Below, piece by piece: positions 10,399 to 56,559 of a stretch of DNA of 64,000 nucleotides. The first letter of the stretch is position 1. Every line of letters begins with the position of its first letter. This DNA is from an uncultured Chthonomonas sp. (GTDB lineage: Bacteria; Armatimonadota; Chthonomonadetes; Chthonomonadales; Chthonomonadaceae): the NCBI GenBank assembly GCA_903859705.1, contig CAIONQ010000090.1, forward strand, positions 1 through 64,000, given 5' to 3'. The notes under the pieces were generated by a model. The model made no database searches. It saw only the letters and a program-made list of their open reading frames with translations, and was not told the DNA's origin. A program made the position numbers and the translations under genes.

Positions 10399-11118
10399 AT
10401 GGAGACTAAAACGAAGGTGGATCAGGCCGAAGTTAATGCAGAAGTTACCGGCTTGACGGCACGGAATTCCGATGCCGAAGCCCGACGGATATGCATCCGA
10501 TTTCGGGAAGTTACCCACCGTTTTGGCCCCCGATCCGTACTTGAAAACATTTCTGCAGAGGTGCATACCGGCCAGGTTGGCATTATTACCGGATCTAATG
10601 GATCTGGCAAGAGCACGCTGTTGCGTGTGGCAGCGGGCCTGCTTACCCCGATGGCAGGTGAGGTTGAGATACAAGTAGATGGGCGGACGCTTTGCCCAGA
10701 TGACAGGCGATCGGCGATTGGGCTTGTTGCGCCAGATCTCACCCTATACAGGGAGTTAACCGGCGCCGAAAATCTGAGCTTTTTTGCGAGGTTAAGGGGA
10801 ATTGACCCAACGCGCGAAATGCTGATTGAAGCCCTGACTGAGGTTGGCCTGCGCGGCAGAGGGAGGGACATGGTTAGTGGTTACTCCTCTGGAATGCGGC
10901 AGCGCCTGAAGTATGCATTTGCCATGCTTGGCCGCCCGCCAATATTGATGTTGGATGAGCCAACAGCCAACCTGGATGTAGAGGGGATTGCCATGGTGGA
11001 GCGCGTGGTTGCTATACAAAAAGCACGGCCAGACGGCGGCATTGTGCTTGTTGCAACCAATGAACCGCGAGAAACGGCATGGGGAATTCCGTTGATACAA
11101 CTGGAGGCAACACGGTGA
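10399..11118 (+). CDS. ccmA: Heme exporter ATP-binding protein CcmA
   Basis: A 239-residue ABC ATPase energising release of holo-CcmE in cytochrome c maturation. Walker A GSNGSGKST is near residue 66, the signature SGYSSGMRQR near 155 and Walker B ILMLDEPTANLD near 183. An N-terminal extension of about 30 residues precedes the domain. It is first in a six-gene operon and overlaps ccmB by GTGA. The Shine-Dalgarno is weak, so the exact start is not certain. Confidence 0.88.
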   Translation: METKTKVDQAEVNAEVTGLTARNSDAEARRICIRFREVTHRFGPRSVLENISAEVHTGQVGIITGSNGSGKSTLLRVAAGLLTPMAGEVEIQVDGRTLCPDDRRSAIGLVAPDLTLYRELTGAENLSFFARLRGIDPTREMLIEALTEVGLRGRGRDMVSGYSSGMRQRLKYAFAMLGRPPILMLDEPTANLDVEGIAMVERVVAIQKARPDGGIVLVATNEPRETAWGIPLIQLEATR

Positions 11119-11945
11119 GCGGTAACACTGCGGCCAATTCCTCCGTAAATAATGCGGGCATTAGCGTTGGGAACCAGGCGGCCGTGAAAGCCGCAAACTG
11201 GTTACCACAGGCCATTGCACTGTACAAAAAGGACATACTTGCCGAAACGCGAACGCGCGTTGCCATCAATTCGGTAGGGCTTTTTGCCTTTGCAAGTCTG
11301 TTTTTGCTTACGCTTGCAACGCGCGGTCTGGGAGAGGTACAGTCTATTCGAATACTGTCCCTGCCTCTACACGGCATTACCCTTGCCGATGTTGAGAAAG
11401 CGCAAATTCCAGCATGGACCGGCCCCAGCAAGTTAGGACTGCTGTGGGTACTGCTATGTTTTGCGGCCTTCGCGGGGTTGGCACATGGCTTTGTTCACGA
11501 AGAAGAGGCGGGAACAGGAACAGCGCTGCGGTTAACGATGAATCCACAGGCTGTTTATGTTGGCAAGTTGAGCTTCAACCTCACTTTGCTGTCACTTATT
11601 GCGGTATTAGTGACTCCTTTCTATATGGGACTAACCGGCATGCACGCCGGAGCGTGGCCGGCCTTTCTGGTAGTGATGCTGGGAGGATGCCTTGGTTTAG
11701 GAAGTACCGCCACAATCATTGCGGTTCTGGCATCCAAGGCCAGGGGCTCTGGAGCGCTTTTCGGTGCCATTGGGCTTCCGATCATAGTGGTGTTTTTGAT
11801 GCTTCTGCTGAATGCAGCGAACACCTTATATAATGCGGAGGCAACAACCATGCGGATGGTGCAAGATTTTGGCGGCCTTATGAGCTTCGGAGTGCTGCTG
11901 ATTTCGGTGAGCGCGTTCACATTCAAATTTGTGTGGGAAGAGTAA
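11115..11945 (+). CDS. ccmB: Heme exporter membrane protein CcmB
   Basis: This is the membrane partner of CcmA, with six hydrophobic segments (e.g. VGLFAFASLFLLTLA, GLLWVLLCFAAFAGLA). LYKKDILAETRTR at the N-terminus and FVHEEEAGTGTALRL after the second segment match CcmB (E-x-R and the HEEE/GT motif). I choose GTG 11115 because GGAGG stands 7 bases upstream and the codon overlaps the ccmA stop as GTGA. An ATG 36 bases earlier lies deep inside ccmA. The product is 276 residues. Confidence 0.88.
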   Translation: MSGNTAANSSVNNAGISVGNQAAVKAANWLPQAIALYKKDILAETRTRVAINSVGLFAFASLFLLTLATRGLGEVQSIRILSLPLHGITLADVEKAQIPAWTGPSKLGLLWVLLCFAAFAGLAHGFVHEEEAGTGTALRLTMNPQAVYVGKLSFNLTLLSLIAVLVTPFYMGLTGMHAGAWPAFLVVMLGGCLGLGSTATIIAVLASKARGSGALFGAIGLPIIVVFLMLLLNAANTLYNAEATTMRMVQDFGGLMSFGVLLISVSAFTFKFVWEE

Positions 11946-11951
11946 GCGACA

Positions 11952-12674
11952 ATGGCACAAACAGGCACAGCAAATAACACAGGATCTGCCACTGCACCGG
12001 GCCGCCTTGCGCCCTGGAAAATTGCATGTGGCGCGATCATGGTGTACGTCATATATGGATCGTTTTTTGTTGCTGGCGGAGCAGAAGGATTTAGAGTTGG
12101 CGGCGATGGAGCCAGAGCCATCTTCTTTCATGTGCCAGCGGCAATTCTCAGCTCTGTACTCTATTTTGCGGGAATGTGGTACGCAGCGGTTTTTCTGTTC
12201 GGTAAAAAACAAAACGATATGGAGGCAGATGCCAAATCCGGCATATGTATGGAGCTTGGTGCGCTTTTCTGCCTGTTGGCAACCATAACGGGCAGCATTT
12301 TCGCTGGAATTCAGTGGGGGGTGTTCTGGAACTGGGACCCTCGTGAAACCTCCATTATCGTAATGCTACTGCTGTATGCAGCCTACTTGATTTTGAGAGG
12401 CGCCATGGCCGGTAAACCCGCAGCCCGGGCGCGCTTATCTGCAGTGTATGCTTTGATTGCCCTTGTGCCCGCACAGTACTTGATATGGGCTGTGCCGCGG
12501 CTGCTTGAGGGCAATCATCCAACCAATACATTGCGAGACCCGGCCATGACCAGCCTGGGCTACAAGCTGGTGCTTTACCCATCTTTCCTCGCATTTGCAA
12601 TGCTGACTGTCTGGCTATTCCAGCTTCGCTTCCGAGCCTATCGCCTGGCTGCCAGCCGGGAGGAGACCCTGTGA
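11952..12674 (+). CDS. ccmC: Cytochrome c biogenesis protein CcmC (heme handling)
   Basis: A 240-residue six-helix membrane protein of the HHP family. The tryptophan-rich WWD motif appears as WGVFWNWDPRET near residue 119. Conserved periplasmic histidines are at FHVPAAI (first loop) and GNHPTNT (later loop). CcmC presents heme to CcmE in the periplasm. It follows ccmB by 6 bases and overlaps the small downstream gene by GTGA. Confidence 0.9.
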   Translation: MAQTGTANNTGSATAPGRLAPWKIACGAIMVYVIYGSFFVAGGAEGFRVGGDGARAIFFHVPAAILSSVLYFAGMWYAAVFLFGKKQNDMEADAKSGICMELGALFCLLATITGSIFAGIQWGVFWNWDPRETSIIVMLLLYAAYLILRGAMAGKPAARARLSAVYALIALVPAQYLIWAVPRLLEGNHPTNTLRDPAMTSLGYKLVLYPSFLAFAMLTVWLFQLRFRAYRLAASREETL

Positions 12675-12808
12675 GTCACCAAACAATACTTGGCCTAATT
12701 ATGGCCGTGCCCCTGCTAACATGGCTGGGAGTTTTTCTTTACCTGATCAATATCGACCGAACTCTCCAAAGGCTGGAGAGCACCAGGAAAGAGCAGGATG
12801 ACCTGTGA
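12671..12808 (+). CDS. ccmD: Small CcmD-like membrane protein (45 residues)
   Basis: Starting at GTG 12671 (overlapping the ccmC stop as GTGA, with GGGAGGAG 6 bases upstream), this short frame encodes one membrane segment, ILGLIMAVPLLTWLGVFLYL. A charged tail follows (INIDRTLQRLESTRKEQDDL). Single-helix proteins with an R..RLE tail between ccmC and ccmE are CcmD, which couples holo-CcmE to the CcmAB transporter. The stop overlaps the ccmE GTG. Easily missed because of its size and GTG start. Confidence 0.75.
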   Translation: MSHQTILGLIMAVPLLTWLGVFLYLINIDRTLQRLESTRKEQDDL

Positions 12809-13248
12809 AAAAGACATACCTTATCGGTTTGCTGGTAATCAGCGCCGCACTCGGATTTACCCTCTGGGCTTTTAGCAACTCATTGAGCCCATTTGTAGAC
12901 ATTCGCACGGCACGCCAGACCACCGGCTCGTGCCAGGTTCGGGGCCTTATTGTAAAAGACACGAACCATGCCGCACGTTACGATGCGTCTACCCGTTCTT
13001 TCCGCTTCTGGATAGTAGATAAGAACAAAGACCTGTGTGAAGTGGTTTACCACGGCGCCAAGCCGGATGCGTTTGATGCGGCAAAAGGCCTCTCGGCCTC
13101 TGGAAGCATGACCCGCGCTGCAGATGGCACCGAGTTCTTTAACTCCGACAGCCTCTCGGTTCAGTGCCCTTCCAAATACGATGATGCCAAGGCAGACTAT
13201 GGCAAGAAGCCAGCGGGCTCAGCACCCAAATTGGGAGGTCAGATTTAA
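12805..13248 (+). CDS. ccmE: CcmE, CxxxY variant heme chaperone
   Basis: A 147-residue protein with one N-terminal membrane anchor (TYLIGLLVISAALGFTLWAF) and an OB-fold domain. It shows CQVRGLIVKDT, FRFWIVDKNK and VVYHGAKPDAF, as in CcmE (canonical V.Y.G..PD.F). Near the C-terminus classical CcmE has HDENY-type heme attachment through His. Here it is CPSKY (C121 to Y125). This CxxxY form is known from System I* of Desulfovibrio and archaea. The GTG start overlaps the upstream stop; the TAA overlaps ccmF as TAATG. Confidence 0.9.
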   Translation: MKKTYLIGLLVISAALGFTLWAFSNSLSPFVDIRTARQTTGSCQVRGLIVKDTNHAARYDASTRSFRFWIVDKNKDLCEVVYHGAKPDAFDAAKGLSASGSMTRAADGTEFFNSDSLSVQCPSKYDDAKADYGKKPAGSAPKLGGQI

Positions 13249-15866
13249 TGTCCCAGCTAGGTCCAATTTGGACGGCCGCGGGGACGCTTGGTAAGGTTGC
13301 GCTTTCGGTCGGTCTGATTGCGTCCTTGCTTACCGTCATCGCATATATACTCGCGCTTCGCAAGGATGCTGGCAAAAAGCCACTCCTTGCAGCGCGGGCC
13401 CTCTACACGATTTCGGCAGTTGGCATGCTGGCAGCGTTTGGCCTGCTGATTGCCATTGTTTATGGATACCATTTTGAGTATAAGTATGCTGCGGATCACA
13501 CCGGAACGGGCATGAGCACGTGGTACCGCCTTGCAGCTACTTGGTCGGGCCAGGAGGGATCCTTCCTTTTGTGGGGAGGATGGACAGCCCTTATCGGTTT
13601 CCTGGTGTTTGCATGTGGTGGCAAATATGAAGCCCGCGTTATGCCGTTTTACGTTTCCGTAATTGGCATGCTTTGCGCAGTGCTACTGAAGCAGAGCCCC
13701 TATGAACTGCTTCCTGCGCCCTCCCATGCGGAATTACTCGCAAACCCATCATGGCATTTTCCACCCATGGAAGGTGCAGGGCTGAACCCATCACTCCAGA
13801 ACTACTGGATGACGATTCATCCGCCAACCATCTTCTTTGGGTTTGCCTCCCTCCTGGTTCCGTTCTGCTATGCAATGGCCGCGCTGATATGGCGAGACTA
13901 TGATGGCTGGACCAGCCGGGTAATGCCGTATTCTCTGCTCTCCTGCGGTACCCTTGGCCTTGGCCTGTTTATGGGCGGCTACTGGGCATATGAAACTCAG
14001 GGATGGCACGGATTCTGGGCATGGGATCCAGTTGAGAACGCGAGCTTCTTCCCGTGGCTTTCGGTAACAGCTCTTGTGCACGGCCTCGTGGTTCAAAAAA
14101 GCCGTGGAGGCATGGGTAAAACCAACACATTCCTTGGAATTCTCTCCTTCTGGCTCTTCTTACTGGGAACCTTCCTCACACGCTCAGGTGTTCTGGCGGA
14201 AGTATCCATCCACGCATTTGCCAATATTGGGAAGAGCGGCCTTGCGTTAATGGTTGCCATGATGCTGATTTATGGCCTTGGTGGCCTGGCATTGTGGCTG
14301 TGGCGAGTGAAAGATATACCGGGTAGGAAGACAACTGGCGACACCCTGGTGAGCCGTGATTTCGCCTTCTTTATGGCGGTAACCCTGCTGATACTGGCCT
14401 GTGCATTTGTAACTCTGGGCACAACGGCACCGTTGGGGCAGAAGATGCTGCACAAGCCGCTCAGCCCACCGCAGGCTGTGTTCTACAACCGATCTATGAT
14501 GCCGCTGGCGATTATTGCCGGCCTACTAATGGGATGCGTTCCGTGGCTTGCTTGGAAGAAAACAGACCCGGACAAGTTCCTGCGTAAGCTGGTTGGCCCG
14601 TGGCTGCTGATGGTGGTTTTCGGTTCGCTATTGCTTGTGTGGGTTCTGGGGGCAGAGCGAGCCTGGGTGGCATCCCGAGACCTATCTGATGAGGCCGTTC
14701 AGAACACAATGAAGGCATGGGTTAACCCCAGCTTGCAACGTGTTTCTGTAATCCTGCTAGCTTCAGTTGGATTCCTTGCAGTGCTCTCAAACTCGGCACT
14801 TGCTGCACGTGTTTTCCGGAAAAAACCCTTTGCGGCGGGCGGATGGTTGGCACACGTTGGCATTGGCGTTATGATGATAGGTGTTGTTGTATCCAATACC
14901 TACGAGCGTACTGAGCGCATAGACCTTATTCAGGGGCATGGCCCGAAAACAGCTTTCGAATATCAGTTTGAATTCGAAAAGATGACTGCCAAGCCAATGG
15001 ATATGAGGCCGCTAAACCCGGATTATGTTAAAGACAACGCTGTACAGATGCGCGTAACTCCGCCCGAAGGCGAAGGCAAGCAGGCAGATGGCAGCAGAAC
15101 CTTCCTGGTATCTCCGCGCTGGTTTGTTTATAACCTGGCCACTGCACGATTTGAGGATGATGCTCAGGCTATCAGGTGGCCAGACATCCGCAAGTACATG
15201 GGACACGACCTGTATGTTGGCCTGGCAGCAAACCCGGAGTTTGTGTTTATCGACCCGGATAACCGCAATACGCGCCAGCAGCTAACGCTGCAACCCAAGC
15301 AGAAGGTGCCGTTTGGCCCTTACACCATCGGCTACTACGATAAGTTCGGCACTCCTGGTAAAGAGCAGGGCGTTCGGTTGGCCATTTTAAAGCCAGACAA
15401 CACCGTTGTGGAAGCGGACCCGGTTATTAGAATGGCGATGGGTGAAGACGGCAAGATGCACCTTACTCAGGACGAGTATGCTGTAAAACAGCTTCGCGAT
15501 GAGAACCAGGTACCCGGTGTTGCACGCCTCGACAATATCGATCCGTCAACAAAGGCTGCAACAGTTAGCCTCAGCTTACCCGGTGCTAACACCACTGGTG
15601 TATGGGTTGTGCATGCCGAAGTAACCTATAAACCATGGGTTAACCTCGTATGGGGCGGTGTGCTTGTAGCGGTGCTGGGGATATTTGTTGCAGGTATACA
15701 CCGAACACTGGAAGCACGCAAAGTGCTGGCAACCGGGCGAGAAGAGGCGTTCCTGGATCTTGGTGAGGAAGAAGAAGAGCCTGCCAGCGTTGTGCCGGGG
15801 GCAACTCCATCGCGTACGCCGCCGGTTGGAAAATCGACCCGTCGTAAGCCAGCCAGTCAGGCTTAA
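13248..15866 (+). CDS. ccmF: Cytochrome c heme lyase CcmF
   Basis: An 872-residue polytopic membrane protein with about 15 hydrophobic segments. The heme-handling WWD motif is GWHGFWAWDPVENASFFPWL near residue 255. It is followed by GTFLTRSGVLAEVSIHAF and, earlier, the HPP-containing segment WMTIHPPTIFFGF. CcmF attaches heme from CcmE to apocytochromes. A soluble periplasmic domain near residues 560-800 precedes the last helix. The tail has an acidic stretch (GEEEEEP). No ccmG or ccmH follows in the next genes. Confidence 0.95.
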   Translation: MSQLGPIWTAAGTLGKVALSVGLIASLLTVIAYILALRKDAGKKPLLAARALYTISAVGMLAAFGLLIAIVYGYHFEYKYAADHTGTGMSTWYRLAATWSGQEGSFLLWGGWTALIGFLVFACGGKYEARVMPFYVSVIGMLCAVLLKQSPYELLPAPSHAELLANPSWHFPPMEGAGLNPSLQNYWMTIHPPTIFFGFASLLVPFCYAMAALIWRDYDGWTSRVMPYSLLSCGTLGLGLFMGGYWAYETQGWHGFWAWDPVENASFFPWLSVTALVHGLVVQKSRGGMGKTNTFLGILSFWLFLLGTFLTRSGVLAEVSIHAFANIGKSGLALMVAMMLIYGLGGLALWLWRVKDIPGRKTTGDTLVSRDFAFFMAVTLLILACAFVTLGTTAPLGQKMLHKPLSPPQAVFYNRSMMPLAIIAGLLMGCVPWLAWKKTDPDKFLRKLVGPWLLMVVFGSLLLVWVLGAERAWVASRDLSDEAVQNTMKAWVNPSLQRVSVILLASVGFLAVLSNSALAARVFRKKPFAAGGWLAHVGIGVMMIGVVVSNTYERTERIDLIQGHGPKTAFEYQFEFEKMTAKPMDMRPLNPDYVKDNAVQMRVTPPEGEGKQADGSRTFLVSPRWFVYNLATARFEDDAQAIRWPDIRKYMGHDLYVGLAANPEFVFIDPDNRNTRQQLTLQPKQKVPFGPYTIGYYDKFGTPGKEQGVRLAILKPDNTVVEADPVIRMAMGEDGKMHLTQDEYAVKQLRDENQVPGVARLDNIDPSTKAATVSLSLPGANTTGVWVVHAEVTYKPWVNLVWGGVLVAVLGIFVAGIHRTLEARKVLATGREEAFLDLGEEEEEPASVVPGATPSRTPPVGKSTRRKPASQA

Positions 15867-15978: not shown

Positions 15979-16093
15979 TTCTGCTGGTGTTCAGTTTCCA
16001 CTCTCGCACTCTGTGTTGTAATACCAGAAGCGATGTCTTACACCCTCATGAAAAGCAACCATGCACAATTCAAATATGGGAGAACATGCAACA

Positions 16094-16471
16094 ATGCCGC
16101 GGCAAAGCACCACAAAGGCGCTGCTGGCAGCCGCAGCAGTAATCGTACTTGCTGGCCCGGGCTGCTCCAGATCAGGGCAACAAATCATGGGAGAGGCACC
16201 GCCATCCGCAGCCTCAGCAGTAGTGTCCGAAGCTACGAAATCAAAACCCGGCACTCGCTGCACGCTTAGCGGTGAGATGACGGAGAAGTGCCCGGTTGCG
16301 GGCTGCTGGTTTATGCTTCGAGACAAATCCGGGGTTGTAAGAATAGATACCAAGGCATCCGGCTTTGTAGTTACCTCGGTACCACTGCACAGCCGCGTAA
16401 CTGTAACGGGAAGTGTGGCAGGTGGTGCCGGCATGGAAACAACAGTGGCTGCCACCGGAATTCGTTACTAG
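16094..16471 (+). CDS. Lipoprotein with CPVAGCW motif, OB-fold-like
   Basis: A 125-residue secreted protein with an N-terminal hydrophobic stretch ending in the lipobox LAGPGC (Cys near residue 24). The mature part has EKCPVAGCWFMLRDKSGVVRIDTKASG and then VPLHSRVTVTGSV, an alternating beta pattern like small OB folds. The two cysteines of CPVAGC could bind a metal or form a disulfide. ATG 16094 is chosen with GGGAG 11 bases upstream; ATG 16061 and 16076 are in frame too. It is first in a five-gene cassette with ABC permeases. Function is unknown. Confidence 0.65.
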   Translation: MPRQSTTKALLAAAAVIVLAGPGCSRSGQQIMGEAPPSAASAVVSEATKSKPGTRCTLSGEMTEKCPVAGCWFMLRDKSGVVRIDTKASGFVVTSVPLHSRVTVTGSVAGGAGMETTVAATGIRY

Positions 16472-16472
16472 T

Positions 16473-17162
16473 ATGAAGCGTGCTCATTTTGTATGGCTTA
16501 CAGTTGGCGCGATAGTGGCTATGGCTGGCGCACGCGCACTGACAGCCGGAATTTGGCAGCAGAACCATGGCACACAAACCATAGATCTAACACAAAGCAA
16601 TGTCCACCACTTTCAGCTGCACGAGCAGGAGGCGGCGGGCCTTTGTCCATGGCGTACACCTGCGCAAGATCTGGCTCGATTTTTTCCTGGTGCAAACGGA
16701 AGTATAGAAACACTGATTGTTGTAAGCAACCATCGCACGGAGATTACCGCTCTGCTGGGCCGAACACCCACTGGCGATGAGAACGCCCTCAGGGCATACC
16801 GAGTATCGGCACAGGGCCGGTATGTTGGTTTGATAGTTCCGAGGCGAGTACGTGGAGAACACGGACTAATAGAGGTTGTGTTTGCAATAAGTGCAGACAA
16901 CAACCAAATGCTTGGAGCACGAATTCAGCGCCTGCGCGAACCTGAAGCTGCCGAGAAGGCGCTAACAAGCGATGCGTGGCTCAAGGGCTTTTACGGAGCA
17001 ACCGTTGCCACTGATTGGACAGCCCTGGCAGGGAAAATTGTGGAATCCACAGCTATCAGCAGTGCCAGTTCGATTTCTGAGGCTGCCAGAGTAGTAATGG
17101 CTATTGCAGGGGCATCTGCCGGCAAAGCCAATAGTGCACACCCGGTGGTGAAATCCGAGTGA
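16473..17162 (+). CDS. Secreted protein resembling an FMN-binding domain
   Basis: A 229-residue protein with an N-terminal signal/anchor (FVWLTVGAIVAMAGARALTAG). The central part, GRYVGLIVPRRVRGEHGLIEVVFAISADNNQMLGARIQRLREPEAAEKA, follows the pattern of RnfG/NosR FMN-binding domains (G.I.VV..I...G.I..V.V). The C-terminal AISSASSISEAARVV resembles ISGATISS with the flavin-attachment residues degraded. FMN binding is therefore uncertain. ATG 16473 begins one base after the lipoprotein stop, and its own stop overlaps the permease GTG. Confidence 0.5.
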   Translation: MKRAHFVWLTVGAIVAMAGARALTAGIWQQNHGTQTIDLTQSNVHHFQLHEQEAAGLCPWRTPAQDLARFFPGANGSIETLIVVSNHRTEITALLGRTPTGDENALRAYRVSAQGRYVGLIVPRRVRGEHGLIEVVFAISADNNQMLGARIQRLREPEAAEKALTSDAWLKGFYGATVATDWTALAGKIVESTAISSASSISEAARVVMAIAGASAGKANSAHPVVKSE

Positions 17163-18325
17163 TACGCTTCGCCATCAAAAACCTCTGCCGTAGGCCTATA
17201 CGTACTGCCCTTACAGCAGGCGGCGTAGCGGCTGCTGTTTGTGTGCTTGCTTCTCTACTTGCATTTGGCGAAGGATATCGCAAGAGCCTCGATATAGAGC
17301 TCAAACGGATGGGCATACAGATGATGCTGGTGCCACCAGGGTGCCCCTACGATGCTGCTGCACGCGTGTTAAAGGGCAAGGCGCTGGATGTGTCCCTGCC
17401 CGAATCTGCACTGGCTGCAGTACGGCTGGATTCGGCCGTAGCGCAGGCAGCTCCCCTGCTAATGGCTGCCATCCCCCGCCCTTCTGAAGGCCGAACCGAT
17501 ATGTGGGTGGGAATAGACGAAACTCTACTGCCACTGAAACCCTGGTGGAAGTTTGCGGGCAAATCTGGATGGTTCACAAACCCTTCCAGCGTGATTATGG
17601 GGAACGAGGCTGCCGTTACAGAGATGCGACGTGCCGGCGACAGCCTGTATAGCCCGGAAACCAAACGCGAGTTTCACATTAGTGGAATTCTGGAGCGAAG
17701 TGGCACCAGTGATGACAGCATGTTCTTTGTGCCAATACAAACGGCTCAAGAGATGTTTCATCAGGAGGGCAGGATTACTGCCGTTGGCATCAGGCTGAAA
17801 GATCCCTCTCAGGCCGCCACTGCGGCGGTGAGGTTTCAGCAGATACCGGGCGCACAGGTAGTCACCATGGGCGAGATGATGGGCACCTTCACCACCCTTG
17901 TAGATTCCGTTCGAACGTTGATGGTTGGCATTGCGGGCCTGGCCCTGGTTGTAAGCGGCCTAACCGTGTTTAACACAATGCTGGCCATGGTAATGGAGCG
18001 CACGCGAGAACTGGGTGTAATGCGTGCTGCAGGGGCTGGCCGGGGACATCTGCTGAAATTACTATTTACGGAGAGCCTGTTGCTCACCGGGTTTGGCTCC
18101 GGGCTTGGACTGCTGATAGCTGTGCTGTTCTCCTCTACAGCAGAGCATTTTGCTCGGATGGCAGTGCCGCTTGCACCAGACGGCAGACTGATGGACCTTA
18201 GCCCGGCGATTGCTCTGCAATGCGCGGGAGCAGGAATTCTGGTTGGAGCGGTTGCCGGCATCTATCCCGCCTGTCGTGCCGCTGCTTTGCAACCAATAGC
18301 CGCGATGCGGGAGAGTGCGCAATGA
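17159..18325 (+). CDS. MacB/FtsX-type ABC transporter permease (first of pair)
   Basis: A 388-residue permease with one N-terminal membrane segment, a periplasmic domain of about 210 residues and three C-terminal segments. The FtsX core reads VFNTMLAMVMERTRELGVMRAAGAGRGHLLKLL. GIYPACRAAALQPIAAMRE at the end is typical of MacB/LolC permeases. The periplasmic domain carries PPGCPYDAAARVLKG near residue 60. It overlaps the next permease by ATGA. Such permeases do not usually move substrate through a channel but transmit force to periplasmic partners. Confidence 0.85.
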   Translation: MIRFAIKNLCRRPIRTALTAGGVAAAVCVLASLLAFGEGYRKSLDIELKRMGIQMMLVPPGCPYDAAARVLKGKALDVSLPESALAAVRLDSAVAQAAPLLMAAIPRPSEGRTDMWVGIDETLLPLKPWWKFAGKSGWFTNPSSVIMGNEAAVTEMRRAGDSLYSPETKREFHISGILERSGTSDDSMFFVPIQTAQEMFHQEGRITAVGIRLKDPSQAATAAVRFQQIPGAQVVTMGEMMGTFTTLVDSVRTLMVGIAGLALVVSGLTVFNTMLAMVMERTRELGVMRAAGAGRGHLLKLLFTESLLLTGFGSGLGLLIAVLFSSTAEHFARMAVPLAPDGRLMDLSPAIALQCAGAGILVGAVAGIYPACRAAALQPIAAMRESAQ

Positions 18326-19521
18326 ACCGACTTATGCTGGTGTTCAATAGCCTGCTGAGAAGGCGTATGCGCTCTTCTGTTACGGTGCTTGGTGTGGCTA
18401 TAGGCTCTGCCGCGCTCTTTAGTATGCTTTCGTTTGAAAAGGGTTACCAGGACGGCATCCGAGCTGAACTGGATCATCTGGGAGCCCATGTGCTGGTGGC
18501 TCCAAAGGGATGCCCCTATGATGCGGCATCCATGGCGCTACATGGAGCAAGCTGGCCCTGCTATCTGAAAGAGGAGTATCTACAGCGCGTTCGCAGCACC
18601 GGAGGTGTGGCAACGGTTGCACCGCTGCTTATGAACGCGGTGTACAGCACCCAATCCTCTACGCCAACCGTTTATGTTGGTGCAGACAGCCAGATACTTG
18701 ATCTAAAGCGTGATTGGCGAATAGATGGAGAGTTCCCTCAGGATAGTGGCTCATGCCTGCTTGGCTCCAGCGTGGCGCATAGCCTTAATGCCACGGTTGG
18801 TTCCAGTGTGCAACTTCCTGGCATTGGCTTGGATGACGCTACTAAGCCGCCGATGGTCCATGTTTCCGGCATTATTCGCTCTACAGGGCAATCAGATGAT
18901 ACGTTTGTGTATCTTCCTCTGGATAGAGCTCAGGCCCTTTTTAAACGGCCGCATCAGTTAACACATATGCTGGTGCGCCTTAAAGACCCCAATATGCTGG
19001 AACGCGTAGTTTCCGATTTGCGTGGATGCGACGCTGGAATGGATATGAACGTGGTGCCCGTGGCCCATGTGTTTCGCTCCATACAAAACTTGGTTAACAC
19101 AACAAGAATGCTCCTTGCCTGTGTTGCGTTTGCGGGCCTATTTGCCGCATGTGCGGGCGTAAGCAATGCCATTATGATGTCGGTAACAGAACGTACACGG
19201 GAGATAGGCGTGATGCGTGCGGCAGGTGCCTCACGTGGAGATGTGTTTGGGTTAGTGCTGGCAGAAACAGGCATCACAACAACTGTAGGCGCTGTTATAG
19301 GCATGCTGCTGGCAATGGCATCCGGCCCCGCAGTTGAGGCGTGGATACGTTCTCGATTACCCTTTTCGCCGAATGGTGCACTTATCAAGCCTGATCCTGG
19401 GTTGATGGGCCTATGTGTGCTCGTGTCTGTTCTAACGGGCCTTGTTTCTGGCATGGCACCAGCTATTCGGGCATCCAGAATATCCCCGGTGCAAGCAATG
19501 CGTGATAGTGAGGTTATGTAG
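18322..19521 (+). CDS. MacB/FtsX-type ABC transporter permease (second of pair)
   Basis: A 399-residue paralogue of the preceding permease, same topology. The core is NAIMMSVTERTREIGVMRAAGASRGDVFGLV, and the protein ends with RASRISPVQAMRDSEVM. The periplasmic domain shows APKGCPYDAASMALHG at the equivalent place, so the GCPYDAA motif is conserved between the two. The start is ATG 18322, overlapping the first permease's TGA. Together the two probably form a heterodimer served by the ATPase encoded next. Confidence 0.85.
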   Translation: MNRLMLVFNSLLRRRMRSSVTVLGVAIGSAALFSMLSFEKGYQDGIRAELDHLGAHVLVAPKGCPYDAASMALHGASWPCYLKEEYLQRVRSTGGVATVAPLLMNAVYSTQSSTPTVYVGADSQILDLKRDWRIDGEFPQDSGSCLLGSSVAHSLNATVGSSVQLPGIGLDDATKPPMVHVSGIIRSTGQSDDTFVYLPLDRAQALFKRPHQLTHMLVRLKDPNMLERVVSDLRGCDAGMDMNVVPVAHVFRSIQNLVNTTRMLLACVAFAGLFAACAGVSNAIMMSVTERTREIGVMRAAGASRGDVFGLVLAETGITTTVGAVIGMLLAMASGPAVEAWIRSRLPFSPNGALIKPDPGLMGLCVLVSVLTGLVSGMAPAIRASRISPVQAMRDSEVM

Positions 19522-19525
19522 CACG

Positions 19526-20215
19526 GTGGCAACCACAACAGAAAAACCGATTATAGAGGCACAGAACCTGAGCCGAGAGTATGCCCGTGGGCCCGAACAT
19601 GTGAATGCACTTAGCAATGTTAGCTTTCATGTAATGCCAGGTGAGATGACCGCCATAGTTGGGCCAAGCGGAGCCGGAAAATCCACGCTATTACACCTGA
19701 TAGGGTGTATGGATTTACCAACATCAGGCTCGCTACATATCGATGGTGTGGATACTGCTGGCCTGAAAGACAGGCAACTTACGCGTTTACGGCGCGATTC
19801 GGTTGGTTTTGTATTTCAGCAATTTGGCCTCATTCCTACGTTAAACGTGCTGGAAAATGTGCTTATGCCAACCCTGTTTAGCGGCCGGCAAGAAGCGGCT
19901 CGTGCTCTACAGCTACTGGAACAGGTGGGCTTGGCACACAGGGCAAAACACCGCCCACATGAGCTCTCGGGAGGCGAAATGCAGCGAACCGCGATTGCCC
20001 GAGCGCTTATCAACTCTCCGCGCATACTGCTTGCGGATGAACCAACGGGAAATCTGGACTCCGCCAGTGGTGCAGAGGTCCTACAACTCTTCAAATCCCT
20101 GAATTCCAAGGGACTGACCGTGGTGCTTGTAACGCACAACGAATCTGCAGCTGCAACGGCGAGCCGCAGGATGACAATCGCAGATGGCCAACTCGTGGCC
20201 GATATACGGCAGTGA
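19526..20215 (+). CDS. ABC transporter ATPase, LolD/MacB type
   Basis: A 229-residue ATPase with Walker A GPSGAGKST near residue 43, Q-loop VFQQFGLIPTLNVLENV, signature LSGGEMQRTAIARAL, Walker B ILLADEPTGNLD and the H-loop VLVTHN. The sequence class (LIPTLNVLENVLMP) is the LolD/FtsE/MacB group that works with FtsX-type permeases, consistent with the two encoded upstream. GTG 19526 lies 4 bases after the permease stop; GAGG is 12 bases upstream. Confidence 0.9.
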   Translation: MATTTEKPIIEAQNLSREYARGPEHVNALSNVSFHVMPGEMTAIVGPSGAGKSTLLHLIGCMDLPTSGSLHIDGVDTAGLKDRQLTRLRRDSVGFVFQQFGLIPTLNVLENVLMPTLFSGRQEAARALQLLEQVGLAHRAKHRPHELSGGEMQRTAIARALINSPRILLADEPTGNLDSASGAEVLQLFKSLNSKGLTVVLVTHNESAAATASRRMTIADGQLVADIRQ

Positions 20216-54493: not shown

Positions 54494-54875
54494 ATGATAA
54501 TCGACGCTCTGGATAATCCTGTTCCTACGGTTGCCGATATCGACCAAACCTGAGAGTTGTATCAGCGGGTTCTGGGGTTTGAGACAGTTACTTCTGCAGA
54601 TGGCCGCCAGGCGCTACGCTTCGGCATCCAGAAGATCAACCTGCATGAAGCGGGCAAGGACGTATTACCACGAGCACAGGCCCACCCCCGGCTCGGCAGA
54701 TCTGTGCTTTATCACAAGTACCCCTATTACGATAGTACATGCCGAGTTGCATGCAAATGAGATTGACATACAGGAAGGTCCCATCCACAGAACAGGCGCA
54801 ACAGGCACTCTTATCTCCATATACCTGAGAGAACCGGTTCAAAACCTGAGCGAGATTTCGCCCTACCTGCCTTAA
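54494..54875 (+). pseudogene. VOC-family (glyoxalase-like) pseudogene
   Basis: From ATG 54494 the frame reads MIIDALDNPVPTVADIDQT, stops at TGA 54551, then continues in frame as ELYQRVLGFETVTSADG and LRFGIQKINLHEAGKD. Around 54680 homology jumps to another frame (PTPGSADLCFITSTP, then EGPIHRTGATGTLISIYLREP) and ends at TAA 54875. Reassembled, it is a standard single-domain VOC protein of about 125 residues. The first metal-binding His (usually DHLVLTV) is Pro here. One nonsense mutation, one frameshift and a lost ligand show clear decay. Confidence 0.8.
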
Positions 54876-56047
54876 TGCCCGGCACCGGCACCAGGTACGC
54901 TGGTCGCTCGCGGTTTCCATGGGTCAGAAAACCGTGGATCGTTGATCACGCTCCTATCCGTGAGGGAACAGAGGAAGGCGACCAGCGCCTTCTTATCACG
55001 TGGCGTTAAAGGAAAACCCACAATCCTTGGGTCTTTATTGGGGTTCAAGCTGCCATCGCCTTTGTTGGGTCCTTCGGTTATCTTCCTTCCGGCAGCGGCG
55101 TAATGCTCTATGACACCTTCCAACGTAGCGATGCTTCCATCGTGCATGTAGGGCGGGTGCAACTCTACGTTTCTGAGCGAAGGTGCTTTAAACTTGCCAA
55201 CATCCTGCGCCTTCTTTGTAAACTCGTAAATGCCAGCATTGGTGGCCGGGTAAGAGATGGGGCCAGCCACATTGTACAAGCCTGTATTGGAGTACTGCAG
55301 CCAGCGCCTTTTGCCGCGTGCGGCATCTTCGGAGTCTGCAAAATTGAAGCCACCATGGCAGTGAAAGCAGTTGTACTGCCAGCTAAAAAATAGCTCTTCT
55401 CCGCGCTTCGCCAGCTCCGATATAGCATTGCTATCGTGTTGGTAATGGTACTTATCGTAGGGAGATCGCGCGGAGATAATAGTGCGTTCAAAACAGGCAA
55501 GTGCGCGCGTCACATTCTCAAGCCGGAACGGTTTGATATCGGAAGGAAATGCAGATTTGAACAGTCGTTGGTAGGTACTATCTGCTTTCAGAAGCGCCAG
55601 AAACCTATTGTCTGTATTAAGCCCGAGTTCGAGTGGGTGTTTGCCAAACATTGGCACCAAAGCCTGATCTTCTAACGTGCCTACACTGGGATTGCTCCAC
55701 GTTAACGCGGGGGCGTAAGCTATGTTCACCAGCGACATAGATTTACGTACGCCTGGCTCACCAGTAGAACCGGTACTCAAGGCCCTGTTATCGGCAAACG
55801 CATACTTTTGCTGATGGCATGATGCGCAGGCCTGTTTACCATTTCCTGAGATTCGGTTGTCGTAAAACAGATAACGGCCAAGTTCGGCTCGCGCTACCGA
55901 CATCGGGTTGTCTACGGGCACTGTAGGAACGGGAAAACCCTTTGGAAGATTCCATCTGTACCTCTGCGGGCCACCTCCCGGTTCGAGAGCCGATATCGCC
56001 GCCGGGGTAATTCCGAGCATCACAATGGCCAGCGCCAGCCGCTTCAT
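54872..56047 (-). CDS. Diheme cytochrome c peroxidase (MauG/CcpA family)
   Basis: A 391-residue secreted protein with signal peptide (LALAIVMLGITPAAISA). Heme sites are CASCH near residue 90 and CFHCH near 245. Other family segments are AELGRYLFYDNRISGNG, SLVNIAYAPALTWSNPSVGTLEDQA and KAPSLRNVELHPPYMHDGSIATLEGVIEHY. It would use the ccm maturation system encoded elsewhere in this window. Whether it reduces peroxide or oxidises a partner protein like MauG cannot be told. The ATG overlaps the upstream gene's stop (ATGA). Confidence 0.92.
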   Translation of the reverse strand: MKRLALAIVMLGITPAAISALEPGGGPQRYRWNLPKGFPVPTVPVDNPMSVARAELGRYLFYDNRISGNGKQACASCHQQKYAFADNRALSTGSTGEPGVRKSMSLVNIAYAPALTWSNPSVGTLEDQALVPMFGKHPLELGLNTDNRFLALLKADSTYQRLFKSAFPSDIKPFRLENVTRALACFERTIISARSPYDKYHYQHDSNAISELAKRGEELFFSWQYNCFHCHGGFNFADSEDAARGKRRWLQYSNTGLYNVAGPISYPATNAGIYEFTKKAQDVGKFKAPSLRNVELHPPYMHDGSIATLEGVIEHYAAAGRKITEGPNKGDGSLNPNKDPRIVGFPLTPRDKKALVAFLCSLTDRSVINDPRFSDPWKPRATSVPGAGAGH

Positions 56048-56559
56048 TTGCCCTTCTCCTCCAACCGAACTACACGGATTGAACTCACCATCCGTACCGA
56101 GCGCGCACCTTCTTTATCTGTTGGTATTGCAATCCGAAATGGCCCCTCATAGTTGAATAGTGGTTTACCGTCCATTTTGATGGCAAGCACAATCTTCAGG
56201 TTTCCAAAGTTTGAGTCTATTTCGCCAATGGTAAAGGGTACCGAGTATCCATCGCGAGCACTGACAAGCAGTATCTGATGGAGAGCCTGCCCCCTTATAT
56301 GGGGGCCCGAAGACAGAATACCAAACTTAAGCAGCACATCACGCAGCAATGGGCCAGTGTAAAGCACTTTTGTGCCATCATCCGCCGTTACAGATGCACC
56401 TACCTGTTTATATTTCGCAAGGTCAGCCACAGATAAGTGGATAACTTTGCTATCAACAGTCACAATCTCGAGGTATTTTTGTTCAGATGCGGGAGTAACC
56501 TGCGCAGTTGTGCTTGCGGTTATAAGCATCAAACAGACGAATGCAAACAGACTTCTCAC
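56044..56559 (-). CDS. Secreted protein resembling the molybdopterin-binding oxidoreductase fold
   Basis: A 171-residue protein with a signal peptide (LFAFVCLMLITASTTAQ). The pattern LSVADLAKYKQVGASV, YTGPLLRDVLLKFGI, DGYSVPFTIGEID, and PFRIAIPTDKEGARSVRMVSSIRVV follows small sulfite-oxidase-type (SUOX) domain proteins. It lacks the cysteine that ligates molybdenum, so it is probably a cofactor-less member. It is co-translated with the diheme peroxidase. Confidence 0.6.
   Translation of the reverse strand: MRSLFAFVCLMLITASTTAQVTPASEQKYLEIVTVDSKVIHLSVADLAKYKQVGASVTADDGTKVLYTGPLLRDVLLKFGILSSGPHIRGQALHQILLVSARDGYSVPFTIGEIDSNFGNLKIVLAIKMDGKPLFNYEGPFRIAIPTDKEGARSVRMVSSIRVVRLEEKGK

Follow-up and report, generated by a model that had tools for sequence, protein, structure and literature searches.

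In the System I* cytochrome c maturation (Ccm) system of Desulfovibrio, heme is bound by the cysteine of a CxxxY-type CcmE (available text of PMC3601427), and in Methanosarcina acetivorans residue C120 of CcmE is needed for heme (available text of PMC9084895). CPSKY is the form of this motif in 25 of 36 variant CcmE proteins, with chloroflexi and firmicutes among the groups included (PMC3601427, as far as its text is accessible). According to the same partly accessible study, about one third of bacteria with a variant CcmE contain CcmH (Stevens 2011, PMC3601427; the wording prints "System I CcmE" at this point, the asterisk having been lost, to judge from the context), and absence of CcmH is not a characteristic feature of variant-CcmE systems. 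How Ccm can function free of CcmH has been a standing question since System I* was described. Stevens 2011 considered that other Ccm proteins might have compensatory features, and in the accessible part of that paper bioinformatics gave no evidence of them (PMC3601427). The literature searched, including the accessible part of PMC10290634, holds no description of this Ccm system for Armatimonadota, most subscription journals being outside that search.

The window (the whole stretch of DNA analysed, 64,000 nucleotides from an uncultured Chthonomonas sp. of the armatimonadotal order Chthonomonadales) carries a run of ccm genes on the forward strand. The ATPase subunit of the heme ABC transporter, ccmA (10399..11118; PF00005, 88.6 bits), has TIGR01189 ccmA as its top NCBIfam match (124.5 bits, cut-off 131.6) and is followed by the membrane subunit ccmB (11079..11945; PF03379, 26.9 bits, exceeding the cut-off of 24.9). 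The WWD-domain heme handler ccmC (11952..12674; PF01578, 72.9 bits) matches TIGR01191 ccmC with 89.2 bits (cut-off 186) and contains the sequence GVFWNWDPRET. Next is a ccmD-like ORF for a small membrane protein of 45 aa (12671..12808; PF20077 CcmD_alt, 22.5 bits, cut-off 23.5) with a single hydrophobic stretch and an R..LE tail; its GTG start overlaps the ccmC stop and its own stop overlaps the ccmE start. The sequence-only reading had not listed this ORF. Of 16 relatives examined, 12 have a look-alike in the ccmC-ccmE gap, and in the other four the gap as defined is too short (three) or has no fitting ORF (one). The run is completed by a Cys-type (CPSKY) ccmE of 147 aa (12805..13248; PF03100, 41.6 bits) and by ccmF, a heme lyase of 872 aa (13248..15866; PF16327, 86.7 bits; PF01578, 82.7 bits), whose ATG overlaps the ccmE stop. 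Since starts and stops overlap from ccmC through ccmF, these genes apparently form one operon. In the order, ccmB, C, E and F adjoin in 20 of 20 stretches, and ccmA is found in 17 of them. The window therefore holds CcmA, B, C, D and F as System I* requires, CcmD scoring just below its cut-off but in a conserved position.

Directly behind ccmF, neither ccmG nor ccmH was found in the window, as the sequence-only reading had said. The region there (16061-20215) is instead occupied by an OB-fold lipoprotein-like ORF with KCPVAGCWF (PF04076, 24.1 bits, below its cut-off), an unknown ORF, a pair of MacB/FtsX-type permeases and an ATPase of LolD type. This set was not found beside ccm in the order's 20 stretches, where a single LolD-type match on the opposite strand is the exception; some of these stretches extend little beyond ccmF, several of them ending soon after it.

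The ccmE ORF runs from a GTG start at 12805 to a stop codon at 13246-13248, and residues 39-126 of its product match PF03100 at E 1.7e-10 (cut-off 24.6 bits), far beyond chance. Where the E. coli type has HxxxY, the window CcmE has CPSKY (Cys121 to Tyr125; 13165..13179, forward strand, in the CcmE reading frame), with TGC at 13165-13167 as the Cys121 codon. The replacement of the heme-binding histidine motif claimed from the sequence alone is thus real. The cysteine aligns, in a weak match (E 0.44, 13.6 bits), with that of CcmE 2kct, which we take to be the protein from Desulfovibrio vulgaris. By analogy with the characterized CxxxY proteins, heme would be carried covalently on Cys121. Across the phylum, 198 of 291 genomes have a CcmE match (PF03100), as do 28 of the 31 genomes of the order. 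The motif was read in 83 of these 198 genomes: 82 have CxxxY (CPSKY, CPSRY or CPTKY), one has CPSKE (locus L220 of genome G215, in which the tyrosine is missing), and none has histidine. These counts uphold the proposed extension of System I* to Armatimonadota, which taken alone is modest, Cys-type CcmE being already known from chloroflexi and firmicutes.

The remaining maturation factors were sought in the whole genome (6,244,938 bases in 179 contigs; completeness 95.66%). PF03100 returns one CcmE match only, that of the window. No CcmH match is obtained with either PF03918 or a 22-row CcmH alignment, so the CcmH of canonical, E. coli-type System I is not found in the genome. The Pfam model gave one true CcmH (in genome G004) just 25.5 bits, indicating that divergent members exist; of 16 genomes with CcmH-free loci, none of them alignment rows, the alignment recovers CcmH in 14, with scores of 50-173 bits. 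TIGR03142 yields no CcmI match in this genome or in any of the 31 genomes of the order, an absence that is less firm since this narrow model matches 2 of 14 control genomes and not E. coli. For CcmG, TIGR00385 (CcmG/DsbE) gives 18 thioredoxin-like matches, none above the curated cut-off, and one DsbD_TM protein is encoded. The ResB/CcsB of System II is likewise not found (no PF05140 match), and a hidden System II was rejected for the window genome. A draft genome can have lost a gene, yet the single-contig relative G044, from the family of the window, is also without a CcmH match, and no CcmH was found in the 20 order stretches. The finds that would have undone the sequence-only reading, a second, His-type ccmE or a ccmH or ccmI elsewhere in the genome, thus did not turn up, with the narrowness of the CcmI model to be borne in mind. 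One CcmE together with no CcmH, CcmI or ResB match fits the System I*-like maturation it had proposed, and the locus is most likely, from its gene content, a working System I*-type ccmABCDEF cluster and the only c-type maturation system detected in the genome.

A further claim, which couples CxxxY CcmE to the lack of CcmH in known System I*, fails. A sample of 80 loci from many other groups was drawn from among the matches listed by a search for CcmF relatives; the query was a short CcmF from a CcmH-bearing genome, so the sample is biased toward short CcmF and CcmH. A CcmE ORF is present in 72 of these 80 loci, with cysteine at the site in 68, histidine in three and an incomplete sequence in one (among the matches listed). 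CcmH lies inside the same locus in 64 of the 80, including 54 of the 68 Cys-type loci, and whole-genome searches of the remaining 16 found it elsewhere in 14, that for L124 being a 50-bit fragment (again among the matches listed). Overall, a CcmH match, which may at times be the close relative NrfF, is present in 78 of 80 genomes and in 67 of 68 Cys-type genomes among the matches listed. CxxxY is thereby ruled out as a marker of CcmH loss, in agreement with the counter-statement in the available text of PMC3601427. To judge from these sequences, the motif alone is uninformative on CcmH, and here CcmH absence tracks with an enlarged CcmF, a feature that the sequence-only reading had not noted, and not with the motif. 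A Cys-type CcmE with CcmH is already in print; the enlarged CcmF is what is new here. As a separate observation, the three His-type CcmE proteins (L113, L133, L152) form a group nested within the Cys-type ones in the CcmE tree (support 86-88), and the histidine of this line may, with weak support, be derived from cysteine.

CcmF of the window aligns with the CcmF chain of 6zmq at 161.1 bits. Its model (pLDDT 87.2, pTM 0.86) resembles the solved CcmF 6zmq with Z 36.2 over 573 residues at 3.1 A and, for residues 10-360, CcsBA 7s9y with Z 23.5. The histidines H191, H278, H322 and H536 and the WWD are invariant across 30 long CcmF rows; in the WWD segment (residues 252-264; 14001..14039, forward strand) the invariant positions are G252, W253, G255, W257, W259, D260, P261, V262, E263 and N264. 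The protein thus shows the fold, the WWD and the four histidines of the CcmF heme lyase family.

From the transmembrane histidine H536 to the last membrane helix, the window CcmF has about 260 residues. Short forms have 115-143 residues in the same segment (85 measured, the outside ones among the matches listed) and come mostly from CcmH-bearing genomes; the outside loci have 115-132 in 80 of 80 cases among the matches listed. The 35 complete Armatimonadota CcmFs comprise 30 with 209-271 aa (window included) and five with 117-143 aa, with none between; the short ones belong to G001-G004 and G006 (family codes f4-f6). Twelve further long CcmFs (206-319 aa) were counted in 20 further stretches, seven of which have no measurable CcmF and one an incomplete one (L222, 170 aa); among them, L230 (G144) and L231 (G112) are second copies. 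The truncated CcmF of L162 was counted as neither long nor short. In a tree of the CcmF core, with this segment left out, the 30 long forms group as a single clade (SH-aLRT 100), with the five short Armatimonadota forms placed among other groups. The CcmE tree likewise places 16 rows of the long-CcmF group in one clade (99) and the four short-CcmF rows of Armatimonadota elsewhere. As the long CcmF is a single clade, its link with CcmH loss amounts to one evolutionary event, and the association may be a coincidence. There are also exceptions: G001 and G002, and L144 and L151 among the matches listed outside the phylum, combine a short CcmF with no CcmH match, and G005 has CcmE and no CcmH. Thus, CcmH can be missing even where the extra domain is not present, as reported for Desulfovibrio. 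A plasmid search for related CcmFs returned 194 records, all below 60% identity and none covering 80% of the query. In three Acidobacteria loci (L110, L116, L123), a CcmH match lies within the open frame of CcmF (780-849 aa), and the two proteins look fused.

Within the phylum, CcmH matches occur in four of 291 genomes by PF03918 and in five by the 22-row alignment, which finds nothing in the other 286. It was counted in three genomes (G003, G004, G006), where the gene lies directly behind ccmF; these three proteins were alignment rows and so match the alignment by construction. All three genomes belong to outlying families and have a CPSKY CcmE together with CcmH. The contig with the G006 CcmH is 7,442 bases long, the genome is 72% complete and its CcmF and CcmE group with other phyla, so this CcmH is possibly misbinned; G003 and G004 are better founded. 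The G136 match (137.9 bits) is on a 3,044-base contig, probably a contaminant, which also carries part of a short-type ccmF and ORFs resembling ccmG and ccmI, and that in G199 (21.7 bits over 49 positions, a fragment) was left out of the count. The CcmH of G003, G004 and G006 (L065:3627-4714, L062:167-673, L063:6865-8323) is a Cys-rich variant with LVCLCGCG, LVCKCGCG or LICSCPDCG. In G004 and G006 it is followed by a small CcmI-like protein ending in a zinc ribbon (in G006, PF13240 at 21.7 bits, below its cut-off).

ResB matches are found in 59 of the 291 genomes at E 0.001, 51 of them above the cut-off, and four of the 33 genomes with a match above 100 bits also carry CcmE. G058 (L073, L189) has, besides a Ccm set whose CcmF is long, a 182-bit ResB match, and G230-G232 have a strong ResB match and a CcmE match; Systems I* and II may coexist in these genomes. 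Four genomes of one family (G112, G129, G143 and G144; family code f15) each show two CcmE and two surplus-domain matches.

The additional length of the window CcmF lies in a second periplasmic domain. The first beta-domain, or beta cap (residues 551-659; 14898..15224, forward strand), follows H536, aligns with short CcmF and is beta in the models. The second, surplus beta-domain (residues 664-796; 15237..15635, forward strand) has no counterpart in short CcmF. When profiles of the two domains are compared, a score of 36.4 (probability 85.5, 56 columns) is obtained, against a maximum of 13.2 in 60 column shuffles and 14.9 for the reversed profile. This suggests that the surplus domain is, in part, a repetition of the beta cap within CcmF.

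A profile of the surplus domain matches 192 of the 291 phylum genomes, weak matches included. Among the 198 genomes with CcmE it matches 179, and 13 of the 192 matching genomes have no CcmE match. The 19 CcmE genomes without a surplus match include G001, G002, G004, G005 and G006, CcmF length having been measured in few of the 19. Within the 179, the only CcmH matches are those of G003, whose CcmF was measured as short, and of the probable contaminant in G136. The surplus match of G003, where the segment measures 141 aa, is weak (E 1.5e-5). Of 38 genomes from outside the phylum, 10 give weak matches (20-31 bits), all in ORFs of 657-723 aa, so weak surplus matches may be cross-matches to the ordinary cap.

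In structural comparisons, the model of the isolated periplasmic domain (pLDDT 91.7) has CcsBA 7s9y as its top neighbour, residues 103-304 of which match CcmF residues 677-784 (model residues 127-234) with Z 8.5 at 2.5 A over 81 residues. Flavivirus envelope proteins score almost the same (Z 8.4 at 3.6 A), which makes the CcsBA value a tie; the closed CcsBA form 7s9z gives Z 7.2, and Foldseek with the isolated domain finds no match at E 0.001. In CcsBA, the periplasmic region spans residues 98-633, and deletion of residues 100-109 or 229-308 abolishes function while heme binding is still 50-100%; a role of this domain in CXXCH presentation was proposed by its authors (all from the available text of PMC6299221). 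The available part of PMC10663686 describes a beta cap covering the active site of CcsBA and notes one in CcmF. A conserved cysteine that might stand in for the CcmH thiols was sought in the surplus domain; cysteine occurs in 2 of 26 rows, at most once per column.

The overall best explanation of these results, to which we assign a probability of roughly 0.75, is a System I*-type ccmABCDEF with heme on Cys121, a CcmH-free ligation step and a two-domain CcmF cap. CcmABCD would load heme onto Cys121 of CcmE rather than onto the usual histidine, and CcmF would receive the heme from CcmE and attach it without CcmH. The second beta-domain would hold the apocytochrome at the active site or present it there, as has been proposed for the first periplasmic domain in CcsBA of System II. 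Since the surplus domain has no conserved cysteine, some other protein must reduce CxxCH, perhaps the DsbD-like and thioredoxin-like proteins encoded in the genome. Gene content, motif, absent matches, extra domain and predicted fold are what was observed; the heme on Cys121, function without CcmH and the role of the extra domain are what we infer. That the surplus domain takes over part of the CcmH/CcmI role is, by analogy with CcsBA, a real possibility somewhat short of an even chance. More tentatively still, in most of the phylum CcmF might have duplicated its beta cap into a CcsB-like, apocytochrome-presenting domain, making CcmH and CcmI dispensable by System II-like capping.

A comparably plausible account, also a little below even odds, is that this is an ordinary System I* as in Desulfovibrio, in which a Cys-type CcmE and CcmABCDEF are enough, CcmH is not needed, and the extra domain is an ornament of the lineage with some unrelated task, for instance in stability, client choice or surface contacts. 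The Desulfovibrio Ccm operon indeed functions in E. coli with neither CcmH nor CcmG present (available text of PMC3601427), a few genomes combine a short CcmF with no CcmH match, and the long CcmF is one clade. However, no credible CcmH co-occurs with a long CcmF in the sample, 78 of 80 outside genomes with short CcmF have a CcmH match (among the matches listed), and the extra domain is widely kept, in 192 of 291 genomes with weak matches included, all of which speaks against mere ornament.

An unlikely alternative is a hybrid of Systems I and II, in which the enlarged periplasmic region would be homologous to ResB/CcsB instead of repeating CcmF's own cap. In its favour, the C-terminal part of long CcmF matches ResB at hhalign E 2.4e-7 over 236 columns, compared with 72 columns for short CcmF (single-pair values, without shuffle control), weak ResB matches occur inside long CcmF ORFs, and CcsBA is a structural neighbour, with its tied Z. 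Yet without the flanking membrane helices neither beta half matches ResB, and, taken by itself, the surplus domain is not similar to it in sequence (E 0.088). A ResB fusion in long CcmF, suggested by the weak matches in the ORFs, was therefore rejected, since these matches vanish once the flanking helices are removed; common ancestry plus structural resemblance is retained. Short CcmF also matches ResB (E 1.1e-6), with the short CcmF of L062 giving 15 bits to Pfam ResB, so the common ancestry of both synthases explains part of the likeness. Moreover, the two CcmF beta halves match each other better than they match ResB.

That CcmH is present but divergent or in an assembly gap, leaving a System I with Cys-type CcmE, is very improbable: 67 of 68 sampled Cys-type systems do have a CcmH match (among the matches listed), PF03918 barely recognized the true G004 CcmH and the genome is 95.66% complete, but the alignment that finds CcmH in 14 of 16 test genomes finds none in this one, nor in 286 of 291 phylum genomes including single-contig G044, nor in the 20 order stretches.

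A candidate client is encoded in the same window. The diheme cytochrome c peroxidase of the MauG/CCP family (54872..56047, reverse strand; PF03150, 152.7 bits) has two heme-binding motifs, CASCH and CFHCH, and is likely, by its sequence, a client of the ccm system, as had been suggested from the DNA alone. Upstream of it on the same strand (56044-56559), a small molybdopterin-binding-domain protein is encoded (PF00174, 37.3 bits).

If the capping proposal is true, a System I synthase would use a System II-like mechanism, and the surplus CcmF domain is a candidate for the compensatory feature missing from System I*. The 133-residue domain can be named as a direct test object for the compensation idea. 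One phylum offers the contrast, with outlying families that have Cys-type CcmE and short CcmF (CcmH in three genomes) on one side and, on the other, a large clade, also Cys-type in its CcmE, that has long CcmF but lacks CcmH. Two traits that are easily treated as one, the CcmE cysteine and the loss of CcmH, are thereby separated.

Compared with known systems, the window shares with System II CcsBA/ResBC (7s9y, 7s9z) the WWD core and, in the model, a beta-domain resembling CcsBA 103-304 (with tied Z), whereas no ResB gene match is found in the genome and heme would come through CcmE. With E. coli-type System I and 6zmq it shares the CcmF fold, the four histidines and the WWD; E. coli has a His-type CcmE and CcmH, and the 6zmq chain is 660 aa long compared with 872 here. 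Like Desulfovibrio System I* (available text of PMC3601427), it has a Cys-type CcmE and no CcmH; CcmG is absent in Desulfovibrio, and here there is no ortholog above cut-off (PMC3601427, same extent). In contrast to that system, there is also no CcmI match here, and the window CcmF may differ from that of Desulfovibrio in its second periplasmic beta-domain. The Ccm system of Methanosarcina acetivorans is similar in its Cys-type CcmE and in having neither CcmH nor CcmI (available text of PMC9084895). However, M. acetivorans has no CcmD and its CcmF is split in two (PMC9084895, same extent), whereas the window encodes a CcmD-like ORF and one long CcmF chain.
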